DNA of 34,982 nt from Candidatus Falkowiibacteriota bacterium. GTDB taxonomy: Bacteria; Patescibacteriota; Patescibacteriia; Patescibacteriales; UBA12465. The notes beneath the pieces are model-generated. The model did not search any database, was not told the origin of the DNA, and saw only the letters and a list, made by a program, of their open reading frames with translations. The position numbers and the translations under genes were made by a program. Below are positions 2,458-29,750 of the stretch, piece after piece (position 1 is the stretch's first letter; each line of letters starts with the position of its first letter). The DNA lies in NCBI GenBank assembly GCA_003554785.1, contig PWHG01000056.1, positions 1 through 34,982 of the forward strand, written 5' to 3'.

Positions 2458-3627
2458 TTAATTGTTAAATTTACTAATATATGAAGACAATATTGGACCC
2501 AATATTGTAGTAATAATTGCTAATATAATTATAGAACTTACTAAAATTGAGTCAAGCAGTCCACCAGCTGAAGCCGTATAGGTCACTGCTAAGGTGGTAG
2601 TAAGTTGAGTAATTGAAATTGAACCAAAAAGAGCTGAATTTTTTTTAGATAATTTCACTAATCTACCAGCAATATAGCCGCTAAATATTTTAGATAAAAT
2701 AAGCCCCAATATAATCGATAACATCAACAAATTTTTTATATCAAAACTTTTAAAACTTGATAAATCAAGATCCATACCAACTACAAAAAAGAAGATTGGA
2801 ATAAATAAACCATATGAGATAGCATGAATTTTAGATTTTAAAATCTCAGACTTTTCATAAATAATTGCTCCTGATAAAGATAAACCGGCTAAGAATGATG
2901 CAATAATTGGATGGGTACCGAGAAAGGAAAAATAAGCTAAAACTGCTACTAAAACTATAATCACAAAACGCAATCTTCTTTCATAACCATAGTCATAAAA
3001 AAATCTTTTTTTAATTAAATTTTTAGAGATTATAGGAATATATTTTAATAGTAAAAATATAGAAAGAACTAGTACAATAAAGTAAAGTGGTAGAGGTAAA
3101 AAAGTAATTTTACTACTGGTTTGAAATATTAAACCAAGAGCGACTAAACTTAAAATATCTGCCACCATAACCGACGATAATATAAGACGAGAAACATCTT
3201 TAGAGATCGATTTATTTTCTTTAAGTGATGAAACAATAATTGCTACAGATGAAGAAATAAAAATGACACCAATTAAAATACTAGTTAACCAATCATAGCC
3301 AAATAGTCTTACAATTGAGACTCCAACTAAAAAAGGTATAACTGAATTTATAGCCGCCATTATAAAAATCTTTTTCTTTTCTTTATAAATTTGCGAGATA
3401 TCAGTTTCCAGTCCAGCCATAAACATCAAAAATGCCATACCTAAAAATCCAAAAAAGCTAATAGTTTCATCAGCTTGTACGTAATTTAGTCCATAAGGAC
3501 CAAATAAAGCACCAGCTAATATGATAACGCTTAAAAATGGGATCCTAGATCTTTTAAATAACTCAGGAATCACTAGTCCCAAAATTAAAACTAAAAGTAA
3601 TGTTAAGAGAGTTCCTTCATTTATCAT
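2458..3627 (-). CDS. Cation:proton antiporter (CPA2/KefB-like)
   Basis: 389 aa polytopic; LLLVLILGLVIPELFKRSRIPFLSVIILAGALFGP and HPIIASFLAGLSLSG, FVVGMDLDLSS. Confidence 0.85.
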   Translation of the reverse strand: MINEGTLLTLLLVLILGLVIPELFKRSRIPFLSVIILAGALFGPYGLNYVQADETISFFGFLGMAFLMFMAGLETDISQIYKEKKKIFIMAAINSVIPFLVGVSIVRLFGYDWLTSILIGVIFISSSVAIIVSSLKENKSISKDVSRLILSSVMVADILSLVALGLIFQTSSKITFLPLPLYFIVLVLSIFLLLKYIPIISKNLIKKRFFYDYGYERRLRFVIIVLVAVLAYFSFLGTHPIIASFLAGLSLSGAIIYEKSEILKSKIHAISYGLFIPIFFFVVGMDLDLSSFKSFDIKNLLMLSIILGLILSKIFSGYIAGRLVKLSKKNSALFGSISITQLTTTLAVTYTASAGGLLDSILVSSIIILAIITTILGPILSSYISKFNN

Positions 3628-3935: not shown

Positions 3936-5411
3936 TTATTTATCATCTTTAGGTCTCATGAGAGGAAATATCTGACACTCACGACTAGTTTTATTCATTA
4001 AATAGCTAAAAAGACGTTCAGAGAAACCAAAGCCACAAGTTGGTGGCATGCCATACTCCAGAGCTTCAATAAAGTCTTTGTCGTGTCTCTGAGCCTCTTC
4101 ATCACCAGCTTCCCTTAGTTTTTCTTGCTCTTTGAAGCGAGTTTCTTGATCTATTGGGTTATTTAACTCACTATAGCCGTTGCCAAGCTCTGAGCCGGCA
4201 ATAATTGGTTGAAATCTTTGGGCTAGGAGTGGATTTTTATCATTTTTCTTAGCTAGTGGTGAAACTATTAGTGGCGTATTTACTAAAAATCCTGGTCCAG
4301 CAATTTTTTTGCGACAATATTTCCATAAATTATCAATGGCGCGGGTCAAATTAAAGCCCTCTTTGTCGTAGTTAACACCTAATTCATCTAATTTTTTTCT
4401 AATCTCTTTTTCAGTGGTGTCTAAAACATCAATACCAGTGTAGTCTAGTACGGTTTGTCGATAGTCATATTCTTGCCAATCATCATTTAAGTCTACTTTA
4501 AAGTCTTTAATATTAAATTCAGTTGTACCAAAGGTTTCCTTGGCAATATAGCGAAATAGTTCAACTACTAACTCCATTCCCTTTTTATAATCAGCATAGG
4601 CAAGATAAAATTCCATTTGACTGTAGTCTTGAAGGTGATCAGCGTCCATGCCTTCATTTCTAAATTGGCGACCAATTTCAAAAGTCTTTTCAAAACCAGC
4701 AATCATTAATTTTTTCTGCCAAAGCTCACCGGTTGAGATTCTAAGATATACTGGAATATCTAAGGCGTTGTGATGAGTTACAAAAGGTTTAGCGTCAGCT
4801 CCACCAGGACTTGTTTCTAAAATTGGGGATTCTACTTCAAGAAAACCTTTTTGGACTAAAAAATTACGAGTGGCTTGCCAAAATTTAGCTCTCTTTTTTA
4901 TCATGTCTTTTACTTCATTGTTGGCTAAAATATCTAAATAACGACGACGATAGCGTTCTTCTTCATCTTTAAAACCATACCAGGAGTCAGGCAGTGGTCT
5001 AATAGCCTTGGAAATAATTTTGTAGCTTTTAACTAGCAGGCTTCTTTCTCCTTTATTGGTTAAAAAAGCACTTCCCTTTACTTCTATAAAATCACCAATA
5101 TCAATTAGTTTGATAAACTGCTTATAAGTATCACCAAGTTCTTTTTTTGATAAAACTAATTGAATATTTTCTGAGTCATCTTTTAAATTTGCAAAACTTA
5201 AGTTTCCATGTGAGCGAATAGACTGCAAACGACCAACTAAAAAATATGTGTCTTGATTAACTGCTAGTTTTTCAAAACTACTTAAAAAATCTGCTATTTT
5301 CATGTCCCGCTGACTTTTAGCTGGATATGGATTGATGCCTAAATCTTGAAGTTTTTTTAATTTATTAATCCTTTCCTGTCTTTCACTTAAAGGATTATTT
5401 TCTTTAGTCAT
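3936..5411 (-). CDS. lysS: Lysyl-tRNA synthetase, class II
   Basis: 491 aa; RYLDILAN, FLEVESPILETSPGGADAKPFVTHHNALD, FEIGRQFRNEGMDADHLQDYSQMEFYLAY, CGFGFSERL. Confidence 0.95.
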   Translation of the reverse strand: MTKENNPLSERQERINKLKKLQDLGINPYPAKSQRDMKIADFLSSFEKLAVNQDTYFLVGRLQSIRSHGNLSFANLKDDSENIQLVLSKKELGDTYKQFIKLIDIGDFIEVKGSAFLTNKGERSLLVKSYKIISKAIRPLPDSWYGFKDEEERYRRRYLDILANNEVKDMIKKRAKFWQATRNFLVQKGFLEVESPILETSPGGADAKPFVTHHNALDIPVYLRISTGELWQKKLMIAGFEKTFEIGRQFRNEGMDADHLQDYSQMEFYLAYADYKKGMELVVELFRYIAKETFGTTEFNIKDFKVDLNDDWQEYDYRQTVLDYTGIDVLDTTEKEIRKKLDELGVNYDKEGFNLTRAIDNLWKYCRKKIAGPGFLVNTPLIVSPLAKKNDKNPLLAQRFQPIIAGSELGNGYSELNNPIDQETRFKEQEKLREAGDEEAQRHDKDFIEALEYGMPPTCGFGFSERLFSYLMNKTSRECQIFPLMRPKDDK

Positions 5412-5914: not shown

Positions 5915-7363
5915 TTATAATAGCTTATCTTTAACAAGAAGGCAAGAGATAAGAAGGATAATCATAATTCCTAATGGGTGGTTTAAATAGGGAGTAAAAA
6001 AATGAACTATGACTAAAAATAATAAAGCTGGAGTTAAAAAATATTGAAAACGATATTTAAAGGAATAAAAGAGTAAAGAAAGCAGAAAACTAAGATAAGC
6101 AATTAAGCCAAGTAACCCCAGTTTATGCCATAAATCAAGGTAGCCCCATTCAAAAGCGTAGGTTTCATACCATCCATCTTCATGAAATTGCAAAACTCTT
6201 GGATCAGAGCTCTCATAAAGCACAGTAGCACCAAAACCATGCCCTAGTATAGGTTTTTTCATTATATCATCAATTAATACCGGTAAAAGTGACCAACGAG
6301 AAGCTACAGCGGCCTCGTCTTCCTGATAACTAGCTCTATCACGAATATTTCGCAAAGAAAACTGACTGGTGCTAGATAAGAATAAGATATTATTGGCTAA
6401 ATATATAAAAGAAAATGACAAAATAACAATTAAAAATATTTTTAAAAACCAGTGTTTTATTTTCTTTAATTTTTTAGTTTTAATCAAAGTAAAGGCTGAA
6501 AAAAGAATAAATACTATAATCATTGATAACCAAAAAGTTCGTGAAAAACTAATTATTACTGTTGATAGAAAAACAGCGGCAAATAACATTTCTTTTATAT
6601 TCCATCTACTGGCAAAATCACGTTTAAAAACTAGTATTAAAAAAGCAATAGAAGAAAAGATATGCGATTGCAGAAATATTCTTGGCCAAGTATCGGCCAT
6701 AGTGGTAACCTCAGCTACTCCAGTAACTCTTAACCAACGGTAAAGGTCAGGTAAAATCGCTATATCATATGAAAAAAAGACTACTAAAAATAAAGTTTTA
6801 AGACTTAGCCAAAGAGTAGCTAAAAAGAAAATACTTTTAAGTCTTTCAAGTCTTTGCTTATCCTTGACACAGTAAACATAGGAAATAGGTAAAATGAGTA
6901 GGAAAAATAGCCAAGTATTAAAATTAGCTAAAATATTTGATAAATCATTTCCAAGAAAAAAAGCATTAATAAGTGAAAAAGCAATAAAAAAGGCTAAAAG
7001 TATATAAAATTTTAAGTATGGAATTTTCTTAATTATAGCAATCAAAGATTGTCTTTGAATTATTAATTTTACAAAAAAGACTAACATAACTGCTAACCAA
7101 ATACTCATGCGAACTGATAAGGAAAAAGACAATATATCAATTGAAAACATGTGGCCATGAGAGCCAATAATTAATTCAATTAAAATAAGAAGTATGCCCC
7201 ACTCAAGTGACCGCCAAGCTATTATAGCAGTAGCTATAAATGTTAAAATAAGAAAAATATAGTTTAAATCAGTAAAAAAGAAAGCCAGAAAGGAAAGTAA
7301 TTCAAATATAACTATCGCTCCTAAAACTAAAGGCCAATTAATTTGTGAAAAAAATTTATTCAT
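5915..7363 (-). CDS. O-antigen ligase/polymerase-family (Wzy-like) membrane protein
   Basis: Polytopic; ILGHGFGATVLYESS...ETYAFEWGYLDLWHKLGLLGLIAYL. ORF is open from 7408, but MNKFFSQINW (7363), just after the upstream stop, is the likely start. Confidence 0.75.
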   Translation of the reverse strand: MNKFFSQINWPLVLGAIVIFELLSFLAFFFTDLNYIFLILTFIATAIIAWRSLEWGILLILIELIIGSHGHMFSIDILSFSLSVRMSIWLAVMLVFFVKLIIQRQSLIAIIKKIPYLKFYILLAFFIAFSLINAFFLGNDLSNILANFNTWLFFLLILPISYVYCVKDKQRLERLKSIFFLATLWLSLKTLFLVVFFSYDIAILPDLYRWLRVTGVAEVTTMADTWPRIFLQSHIFSSIAFLILVFKRDFASRWNIKEMLFAAVFLSTVIISFSRTFWLSMIIVFILFSAFTLIKTKKLKKIKHWFLKIFLIVILSFSFIYLANNILFLSSTSQFSLRNIRDRASYQEDEAAVASRWSLLPVLIDDIMKKPILGHGFGATVLYESSDPRVLQFHEDGWYETYAFEWGYLDLWHKLGLLGLIAYLSFLLSLLFYSFKYRFQYFLTPALLFLVIVHFFTPYLNHPLGIMIILLISCLLVKDKLL

Positions 7364-7365
7364 AC

Positions 7366-7842
7366 TTATTGACTCCAAGTAATTATATCTCCAGGGTTTA
7401 AACCACATTCTCTTGATTTACTAGCATTAATTTCTAATACTGCATCAGCCTTTCTGTCACTTGAGTACATTTCTTGATAATTCTTCCCTTCTGGTTTGGC
7501 ATTTATATGAATATCTACAATTTCTTTATTGGCAATAAATATTATATCAATAGGAAAATTCATGTTACGCATAACAAAATTTTGATGTTTTTTTTCAGAA
7601 AACAAAAAAAGCATACCGCAATCAGAGCATAGAGACTCGCGATTACTTAACCCTTGATAACGACTTACAATATTATCAGCAATTTCTACCTTAAACAAAC
7701 AATCATTAGCTCTTAGCATTACATTATTATTGTCATTATTATTTATAGAAGAAAATAAAAAAATTAATACTAATATCGCTAGTAAGATAAAAATTCTAAT
7801 TCTAACTTTTTTTTCAGGAAAATTTTTTTTAAACCAAGTCAT
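7366..7842 (-). CDS. DUF192 family protein with N-terminal TM anchor
   Basis: CLFKVEIADNIVSRYQGLSNRESLCSDCGMLFLF...FVMRNMNFPIDIIFIA...AVLEINASKSRECGLNPGDII. Confidence 0.88.
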   Translation of the reverse strand: MTWFKKNFPEKKVRIRIFILLAILVLIFLFSSINNNDNNNVMLRANDCLFKVEIADNIVSRYQGLSNRESLCSDCGMLFLFSEKKHQNFVMRNMNFPIDIIFIANKEIVDIHINAKPEGKNYQEMYSSDRKADAVLEINASKSRECGLNPGDIITWSQ

Positions 7843-27881: not shown

Positions 27882-27965
27882 GCCGCGATGGCGGAACTGG
27901 TAGACGCGCACGACTCAAACTCGTGTGGGAGCAATCTCATGAGGGTTCGACCCCCTCTCGCGGCA
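27882..27965 (+). tRNA. tRNA-Leu (anticodon CAA)
   Basis: GCCGCGA...TCGCGGC acceptor; anticodon stem CACGA-CTCAAAC-TCGTG; long variable arm GGGAGCAATCTCATG; T-arm GAGGG-TTCGACC-CCCTC; CCA not encoded. Confidence 0.95.
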
Positions 27966-27969
27966 CATT
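27946..27969 (+). repeat. att-like direct repeat, tRNA-proximal copy
   Basis: TTCGACCCCCTCTCGCGGCACATT, identical to 29244-29267. Confidence 0.9.
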
Positions 27970-28022
27970 TTTAAATCTTTTAGAATATATTGATTTTTTG
28001 TTTAAATTACTATAATAAAAAA

Positions 28023-28050
28023 TTGACAAAAGAGTATGTTGAGATATAAT
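28023..28050 (+). promoter_or_regulatory. Consensus promoter TTGACA-16-TATAAT upstream of the TA-like operon, with TATGTTGA (28035-28042) / TCAACATA (28086-28093) inverted repeats
   Basis: Read directly from sequence. Confidence 0.6.
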
Positions 28051-28137
28051 AAAGCTATAATCATGTAGCTGAAAATATTTCTAAATCAACATATTTTTTA
28101 TATTTTTATTTAAGTAAATATTTGTTATAATATAATT

Positions 28138-28407
28138 ATGATACCAAGTTTTGTTAAGCCATATTTGTGGTTTAATGATTTAGAAAAAATTGATCCACAA
28201 AAAAATAAAAATCGAATAATTTTGAATGTTTTAAACTTAGGGAGCAAGCAAGCTACCGATTGGCTTTTTGATATATATTCTACTCAAACAATAAAAAAAG
28301 TTATAAAAAACTATGGAGCAAAGGGAGAATTAAGTGATAAATCCTTAAATTATTGGACACTAGTTTTAAATATCGATAAAACTAAACTTATTAAATCACG
28401 TTTTTAG
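28138..28407 (+). CDS. Small protein, putative antitoxin partner of the nucleotidyltransferase (resembles DUF6922-type proteins)
   Basis: MIPSFVKPYLWFNDLEKIDPQKNKNRIILNVLNLGSKQATDWLFDIYSTQTIKKVIKNYG...; 1 nt separates its stop from the next ATG. Confidence 0.65.
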   Translation: MIPSFVKPYLWFNDLEKIDPQKNKNRIILNVLNLGSKQATDWLFDIYSTQTIKKVIKNYGAKGELSDKSLNYWTLVLNIDKTKLIKSRF

Positions 28408-28408
28408 T

Positions 28409-29023
28409 ATGTTCTATAATATCCTAGACAACAAAAGAAAATTAATTCTACCTTTACTTAGGAATTTTAAGGATGATTTTTATCTAGCAGGAGGAACAGG
28501 CTTAGCTTTACAAATAGGGCATCGTGATAGTATTGATTTTGATTTTTTTTCTAAAAATGACATTAATACAGATAATTTATTTTTAAAAATAAGAGAAATA
28601 TTTAATGAGCACAAAATTTTAAAAGCTCATGAGGAATCAAACACCTTAACTGTTTATATAAATAAAGTGATTCAATTAAGCTTTTTTACATATAAATATC
28701 CACTAATTAGTGACTTAATTGATGAACCTTATTTAAAAATTGCTTCAATTACTGATATAGCTTGTATGAAATTATCAGCGATTGTTAGTCGTGCTACCAT
28801 AAAGGACTATGTTGATTTATACTATATTCTCCAAAAAATACCCTTAAAATTATTGTTAGAAAAATTAAATAAAAAAATGCCTGAGTTAGAAACTAACTTA
28901 GTCTTAAAGTCCTTGGTTTATTTCAAAGACATCAAGGAGGAACCAATTAAATTCAAAAATGATGAATTTATAAACTTAAAAGCTATTGAAAAGTTTCTTA
29001 CAGAAGAAATTAGAACCTTGTAA
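28409..29023 (+). CDS. AbiEii/AbiGii-type (DUF1814) nucleotidyltransferase, putative toxin
   Basis: DDFYLAGGTGLALQIGHRDSIDFDFFSK (GG-T..HR.S.D.D.F) and ASITDIACMKLSAIVSRATIKDYVDLYYIL (DIACMK...R..KDY.DL). Confidence 0.88.
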   Translation: MFYNILDNKRKLILPLLRNFKDDFYLAGGTGLALQIGHRDSIDFDFFSKNDINTDNLFLKIREIFNEHKILKAHEESNTLTVYINKVIQLSFFTYKYPLISDLIDEPYLKIASITDIACMKLSAIVSRATIKDYVDLYYILQKIPLKLLLEKLNKKMPELETNLVLKSLVYFKDIKEEPIKFKNDEFINLKAIEKFLTEEIRTL

Positions 29024-29049
29024 AATCTGGCAATAAAAGAAAATTTTTA

Positions 29050-29069
29050 TTAAAAATATATATTTTTAA
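29050..29069. repeat. Perfect 20-bp AT palindrome TTAAAAATATATATTTTTAA
   Basis: Read directly; 27 nt after the toxin-like stop codon. Confidence 0.85.
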
Positions 29070-29137
29070 CTATAATCTCCCCCCTATATTACCCTGACCT
29101 AAATTGTGGCCATTTTGTGTCCAAGAGGTGATTAAAG

Positions 29138-29198
29138 TTGATAACATTTGACTACATTTGATAACAATTGAAAAAGTATATTTTGACTAACATTTAAC
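29138..29198 (+). repeat. Iterated repeats TTGATAACATTTGAC / TTTGATAACAATTGA / TTTGACTAACATTTAAC
   Basis: TTGATAACA at 29138 and 29158 (20-bp period), a third degenerate copy at 29182. Confidence 0.65.
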
Positions 29199-29243
29199 TA
29201 AATTACCTTATTTTAGCTAAAATAATAAAAAATAAGCCGGTGT

Positions 29244-29267
29244 TTCGACCCCCTCTCGCGGCACATT
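29244..29267 (+). repeat. att-like direct repeat, distal copy
   Basis: TTCGACCCCCTCTCGCGGCACATT, identical to the tRNA-Leu 3' end. Confidence 0.9.
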
Positions 29268-29276
29268 ATTTAAAAC

Positions 29277-29303
29277 AAAAGGACGTATATCACGTCCTTT
29301 TTA
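29277..29303 (+). terminator. Hairpin terminator just beyond distal att-like site (likely the ancestral tRNA-Leu terminator)
   Basis: AAAAGGACGT-atatc-ACGTCCTTTT + T. Confidence 0.7.
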
Positions 29304-29357: not shown

Positions 29358-29750
29358 TTATAAAATTGATTGTCGCCAATCAATTTTTTTGGGAAAGGTT
29401 TGAAGTCTAGTGGCTTCACGATTGTAGTTTTTCTCCAGAAGCAATAACCCGTTTTCCACGCTATTATCTTTGGGATTAAAGTAAGCAATTGTTGGTAAAT
29501 AATAATTATTTGCCAATTTGCAAAAGGCAACTACTTCATCTCTAGATTCAGATTGTAAATCTGCTTCCAAGGTGTGGAAATCAGCAATAAAGCCTGACAG
29601 ATGTTTTTCTCCACAGCTTTCTAGAATTGTTTTTGCTTTGGAGAAATCATGGGTGAGTAAAAATTTAATTCCCATAGTTTTAGCCACTTATAAGGCTTTA
29701 GCTTGATCAGATTTTTTTGATAATAAAAGTACCGCTTTTTTATTTCTCAT
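29358..29750 (-). pseudogene. Small hypothetical protein interrupted by an in-frame TAA (29688-29690)
   Basis: Minus strand: MRNKKAVLLLSKKSDQAKAL*VAKTMGIKFLLTHDFSKAKTILESCGEKHLSGFIADFHTLEADLQ...; reading frame is continuous across the stop. Confidence 0.5.

Follow-up and report, generated by a model that had tools for sequence, protein, structure and literature searches.

A 1.3-kb integrase-less island carrying a DUF6922-AbiEii pair at tRNA-Leu(CAA) and its probable place among the tRNA-targeting integrative islands of a lineage with reduced genomes

INTRODUCTION

Genomic islands at tRNA genes, as collected in Islander, are bounded by a regenerated tRNA gene and a displaced 3' fragment in the correct orientation; an integrase gene is required for their recognition, and their sizes peak at 13.6 and 39.9 kb (PMC4383910). 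Integrase-less islands with att sites are also already known. These include the cis-mobilizable elements (CIMEs), which retain attL and attR in the absence of integration and transfer genes (PMC5704250), the ssrA islands of Dehalococcoides (PMC3146451), and the microcin H47 island of Escherichia coli, which is reported to be mobile without a recombinase of its own and to draw its recombination functions from the host context (PMC3191183).

Here we describe an island in a 34,982-nucleotide stretch of DNA (hereafter the window) from a Candidatus Falkowiibacteriota bacterium, which resembles each of these systems in part. It has the same tRNA and displaced-fragment ends as the Islander islands but is only 1.3 kb long and has no integrase. 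Like a CIME, it keeps attL and attR and lacks integration and transfer genes; however, no active element adjoins it in the window, it has a single arm site, and it carries just two genes. The microcin H47 island likewise has no recombinase of its own but spans 13 kb between imperfect repeats of 148 and 144 bp, with no arm-site family shown. A further likeness is to MITEs (e.g., PMC3718332), as short derivatives that keep the terminal recognition DNA of an autonomous family, although the system in the window is that of a tRNA-specific tyrosine integrase and carries intact genes. In the open-license literature searched, we found no account of recurring one- or two-gene tRNA islands of 1-2.4 kb that share arms with autonomous islands in a reduced-genome lineage.

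RESULTS

The tRNA-Leu(CAA) gene and its displaced tail. The integration target is a tRNA-Leu(CAA) gene (27882-27966; the features given here are on the forward strand unless stated otherwise), which is recognized as intact by ARAGORN, is syntenic in relatives, and has its 3' part supplied by the island. A 24-bp repeat, TTCGACCCCCTCTCGCGGCACATT, starts at the first T-loop base of this gene and ends 3 nt past its ARAGORN end (proximal att core, 27946-27969), and is found again, without mismatch, as the displaced tRNA tail that forms the distal att core (29244-29267). This recurrence, at a start-to-start distance of 1298 bp, had been reported in a sequence-only reading of the window, and it is confirmed at these positions. 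The repeat had no match in 100 shuffles, even with 3 mismatches permitted; its 18-bp core occurs just twice in the 911-kb genome (82% complete); and tRNA-Leu(CAA) is the only one of the genome's 37 tRNAs with a tail copy outside another tRNA gene. The viral contigs searched with the tail yielded two matches, both to unrelated tRNAs. Between the copies, the sequence-only reading had seen only two coding genes and structured noncoding DNA. The former holds, as we find a DUF6922 and an AbiEii gene and neither a recombinase gene nor an integrase fragment, so that the description of the element as integrase-less with the pair as its only cargo was correct; the latter does not, as RNA folding of the island's two non-coding stretches is not significant (z = -1.05 and -1.68).

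Empty sites and the displaced terminator. The same reading had proposed looking for empty sites at the tRNA-Leu(CAA) locus of relatives. At the 27 orthologous ParA-tRNA-Leu loci with enough downstream sequence, all from same-family genomes and none from the same genus, the site is empty in 26, and the DUF6922-AbiEii pair is present at none. The order there is ParB, ParA, and tRNA-Leu(CAA), in many cases with MnmA within 1.5 kb. At the sole exception, in genome G026, a different insertion of 145 bp is accompanied by a 20-bp repeat of the tRNA tail. In 24 of the 27 relatives, an intrinsic terminator starts 0-10 bases past the tRNA. In the window, no canonical terminator was found within 170 bases of the proximal copy, and an intrinsic terminator (29277-29301) instead sits 12 bases beyond the distal one. 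This points to the native tRNA terminator having been pushed beyond the distal end of the island when the latter inserted. At about 28029-28099, an A/T-rich stem followed by T6 might act as a weak replacement, and transcription could therefore continue from the tRNA into the pair.

Thus, the locus combines an intact tRNA, a same-strand 3' fragment at the far end, and empty orthologous sites, as in tRNA-integrated islands, in an element of 1.3 kb that encodes no integrase. Together with the displaced terminator and a conserved right end with an arm site (see below), the empty sites strongly support the site-specific insertion into tRNA-Leu(CAA) proposed earlier. The sequence-only reading had itself named two outcomes that would speak against insertion, namely, relatives that all carry the pair with no empty site among them and a distal copy left over from a tandem tRNA-Leu duplication. 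Empty sites exist, and we see no sign of a tandem tRNA. The distal repeat does lie downstream of the tRNA in the same orientation, as a duplication would have it; however, it has an abrupt boundary at the first T-loop base, nothing tRNA-derived precedes it, the DNA on its upstream side is the conserved island end, and a native-type terminator follows it. We consider such a duplication extremely improbable.

Two further observations concern the surroundings of tRNA tails. Short G+C-rich inserts lie between tRNA-tail copies in G026 (the 145-bp insert; L105, 4187-4331) and in G024 (217 bp; L192, about 2542-2759), and these are partly hairpin-like and do not resemble the islands described here. 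Downstream of the island in the window, a minus-strand open reading frame (29358-29750) seems to run on upstream through an in-frame TAA and is a probable pseudogene or has a late GTG start.

The cargo genes. The first gene (28138-28407) encodes an 89-aa DUF6922 protein (PF21956, E=7e-11), a putative antitoxin by position, and the second (28409-29023) encodes a 204-aa AbiEii/DUF1814 nucleotidyltransferase (PF08843, E=1.7e-14), a putative toxin with intact catalytic motifs. In alignments the latter retains the G-[GS]...DxD, K...R, and KD motifs, which are needed for toxicity in the characterized AbiEii (PMC3985639). The pair resembles the AbiE and MenAT toxin-antitoxin systems (PMC3985639, PMC11375011) in family, in motifs I-IV, and in the presence of an upstream partner gene but departs from the type IV AbiE arrangement in that the antitoxin position is occupied by DUF6922 rather than by AbiEi (COG5340). 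A sequence search of solved structures gave no match for either protein, and no papers on DUF6922 were found in the literature searched. An extended -10 element, TGTTATAAT (28123-28131), lies immediately ahead of the DUF6922 start, and a similar TGnTATAAT precedes most homologous pairs.

In most of 79 loci, spread over numerous candidate phyla and some bacteria of other groups, the two genes are conserved together as a unit, and the closest homologues are 55-67% identical. AbiEii relatives are patchy even inside the order (18 of 60 relatives), and this patchiness, along with the conservation of the pair across many phyla, fits horizontal spread. No AbiEii was confirmed in viral contigs, and phages and plasmids gave only weak matches of under 40% identity. 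None of the 79 pair loci scanned in genome contigs is framed by a tRNA tail, and the arm pattern described below had one match near pair homologues at 3 mismatches, which equals the control rate. By its gene content and order, DUF6922-AbiEii is a candidate toxin-antitoxin module, and it may act in toxin-antitoxin or abortive-infection roles that also favor retention of the island.

Related genes were seen in two other settings. The genome of the window has a second AbiEii-like gene (contig C40; L104, 1616-2474) encoding a 203-aa protein about 35% identical to the first, with a different small upstream gene (84 aa). In G036 (L037), a homologous AbiEii pair adjoins three near-copies of one sequence (900-1060, 2740-2860, and 3180-3310), which differ mainly at A-rich codons (AAC/AAT versus TAC, GAC, etc.) and, by their looks, would be the template repeat and variable repeats of a diversity-generating retroelement.

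The two ends of the island. The left end (27970-28137; 14% G+C) has no arm-type site, integrase remnant, or canonical terminator. It contains a sigma-70 promoter-like site that matches the consensus at 12/12 positions (TTGACA-16-TATAAT; 28023-28050) upstream of the pair's own extended -10; promoter-like sites in total are no more numerous than in shuffles. The right end (29079-29206) is conserved. This 128-bp block aligns to the right end of a tRNA-Glu island in G035 with a score of 110 (shuffle maximum, 33) and to an island right end in G003 with a score of 88 (shuffle maximum, 29). It includes an arm-type site, TTGTGGCCATTTTGTGTCC (29104-29122), recovered by both a pattern and a position weight matrix (PWM), and tandem 10-bp repeats of the form TTGAYWACAW (29138-29171). 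Repeats of this kind also come after the arm in related right ends, and both alignments take them in. The tandem repeat itself was found neither in viral contigs nor in 380 other genomes of the class. A DNA search of 381 genomes with the right end gave mostly short A/T matches, among which only that in G157 looked real. Homologues of the pair elsewhere lack the right-end block, which therefore belongs to the vehicle and not to the cargo.

Pairs of arm-type sites, TTGTGACCnnATTGTGWCC or near variants, occur at both ends of integrase islands of this lineage. In the islands of G019, G024, and G013, the left arm lies about 103-106 bases after the tRNA, within the 3' end of the integrase gene. The right arm of islands of this type lies about 119-133 bases ahead of the distal core. 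The right arm of the window is 121 bases from its distal core, a spacing equal to that in G019 and G024. The strict arm pattern, tuned in part so as to cover the window variant, matches in only 4 of 381 class genomes (reversed control, 0); with a relaxed pattern, 15 of 39 family genomes contain 31 sites between them (control, 0). The PWM was not so tuned. Trained on 15 other arms with the window excluded, it scores the window site at 27.7 bits and the next best site in the window at 12.7 bits; the best score in the left end is -1.8 bits, versus 22-31 bits for known arms. Position and conservation suggest that these sites serve as integrase arms. The TTGTGACC pair, found repeatedly at the two ends of integrase islands, was preferred over the 10-bp tandem repeats, which had first been considered as the main arm sites. 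In sum, the window has the family's right-end block with its arm about 121 bp from the core and lacks the left arm about 47-106 bp after the tRNA. It also lacks the integrase and HTH_17 genes by the tRNA that distinguish autonomous members, as do other members.

Integrase-bearing relatives. Islands with integrases in the same family lie at tRNA-Val (8.9 kb; G019), tRNA-Gly (7.1 kb; G024), and, in G013, tRNA-Asp (6.9 kb) and tRNA-Val (10.9 kb), and a 14.5-kb tRNA-Gly island is present in G157, from another family of the class. These autonomous members, of 7-14.5 kb, have a tyrosine integrase and an HTH_17 (Xis-like) gene adjoining the tRNA and often carry defense cargo. Among the cargo genes are those for a DpnII restriction-modification pair, an AriA/OLD-like ATPase, a PD-Lambda-3-like protein, and a DUF3800 protein that fits a PADLOC candidate model. 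A REP_ORF2-G2P replication protein is encoded in one island. The four integrases compared are 40-45% identical to one another, and the islands' integrases are directed to several tRNAs but share one core geometry. In the G019, G024, and G013 tRNA-Asp islands, the tail repeat begins at the T-loop base used in the window or right beside it. In G023 (L198), two 96%-identical, 160-nt island right ends (5085-5244 and 7359-7518), 2274 bp apart, enclose a truncated DpnII-like gene and a PD-Lambda-3-like gene, which suggests tandem island accretion.

Other integrase-less islands. At least five more integrase-less islands, of 1.0-6.5 kb, are present in the family. The sequence-only reading had expected such an island to be unusual in a reduced genome, a view that the recurrence of these elements does not support. 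Three keep both arms around one main gene: a 1.0-kb island between tRNA-Asn tail fragments in G013 (192-aa gene), a 1.7-kb island with an exact 21-base tail at tRNA-Glu(CTC) in G001 (354-aa gene), and a 2.4-kb island with a degenerate distal core at tRNA-Ser(TGA) in G035 (674-aa gene). In the other two, at tRNA-Ser(GGA) in G003 (3.6 kb) and tRNA-Glu(TTC) in G035 (6.5 kb), the right arm was found. No integrase or Xis homologue was found in any of these five. G001, G035, and like family genomes have one tyrosine recombinase each, probably Xer. The five integrase-bearing islands exceed the integrase-less members, with the window island counted among the latter, in size (Mann-Whitney p = 0.004), a descriptive contrast between few cases chosen by the arm pattern. 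In G001, the 1.7-kb mini-island is followed by another sequence resembling a left end (L250, in the oriented flank after +1682), which suggests a tandem element or remnant.

DISCUSSION

We consider it very likely that the window harbors an integrase-less member of its lineage's family of tRNA-targeting integrative islands. Under this model, a tyrosine integrase binding core and arm-type sites would have recombined the island's copy of the tRNA tail with the T-loop/3' end of tRNA-Leu(CAA), rebuilding the tRNA and pushing its own terminator to the island's far side. The integrase would have been that of a larger relative, encoded either by the island itself and since lost or by another element acting in trans. 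The present element has kept both cores and the right arm, lacks integrase, Xis, Rep, and left arm, and has DUF6922-AbiEii as its only cargo. The insertion, the restored tRNA, the right end's membership of the family, and the element's lack of an integrase gene are shown here; the origin of the integrase is the more conjectural part of the model. That the pair instead arrived alone by illegitimate recombination, with the tRNA repeat unrelated or produced by RecA-independent slippage, is very improbable: its homologues do occur in many contexts without att repeats (79 loci), but the arm site, its spacing, and the right-end homology mark an island regardless of what it carries.

More evenly balanced is the question of whether this family member can still move. 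Lambda-type integrases use arms on both sides. By analogy with these, the window copy, with only its right arm left, is more probably a CIME-like remnant frozen in place than a cassette that is still active, and it is probably immobile unless the integrase of a relative tolerates a single arm. A full island may well have integrated here, with one deletion then taking the left arm, integrase, Xis, and Rep and sparing the cargo nearest the right end, a scenario to which we assign about an even chance. The missing parts (terminator, left arm, integrase, and Xis) indeed cluster at the left end of intact islands, and G035 (6.5 kb) and G003 (3.6 kb) likewise have integrase-less islands with one arm. 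On the other hand, the left end bears no integrase scar, though an old deletion may leave none, and the small size and intact pair recall the compact two-armed mini-islands. The alternative is a still-active, non-autonomous mini-island that a larger island, either co-resident or infecting, excises and inserts in trans with its integrase and Xis, as transposases move MITEs; we regard this as possible but clearly short of probable. It would accord with the three two-armed islands of 1.0-2.4 kb, with the ability of island integrases to target several tRNAs, and with the identity of the window cores over 24 bp. Yet the mobility of the two-armed mini-islands is itself putative, the window copy has no left arm, no second copy of its right arm was found elsewhere in its own genome, and no helper integrase was found there: the only tyrosine recombinase detected in this metagenome-assembled genome, which at 82% completeness could hide an integrase elsewhere, is a Xer-type protein beside an FtsQ-like gene. 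Mobilization in trans, as put forward in the sequence-only reading, is thus plausible for the class, given the three two-armed integrase-less islands, and doubtful for this copy.

A broader, tentative proposal, to which we give a little less than an even chance, is that the lineage has a standing population of one- or two-gene integrase-less tRNA cassettes, which have arm sites and core geometry in common with autonomous, defense-carrying islands and rely on the integrases of those islands for movement in trans. The arm signature provides a sequence handle for helper islands, mini-islands, and remnants alike and makes trans mobilization by a defined integrase directly testable. Island finders based on integrases skip such elements, and gene gain in reduced genomes may thus be undercounted. 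The islands described here place defense-type cargo on small tRNA islands in tiny genomes, and, if the proposal is true, streamlined genomes would have a cassette or satellite system whose cargoes include a toxin-antitoxin pair.
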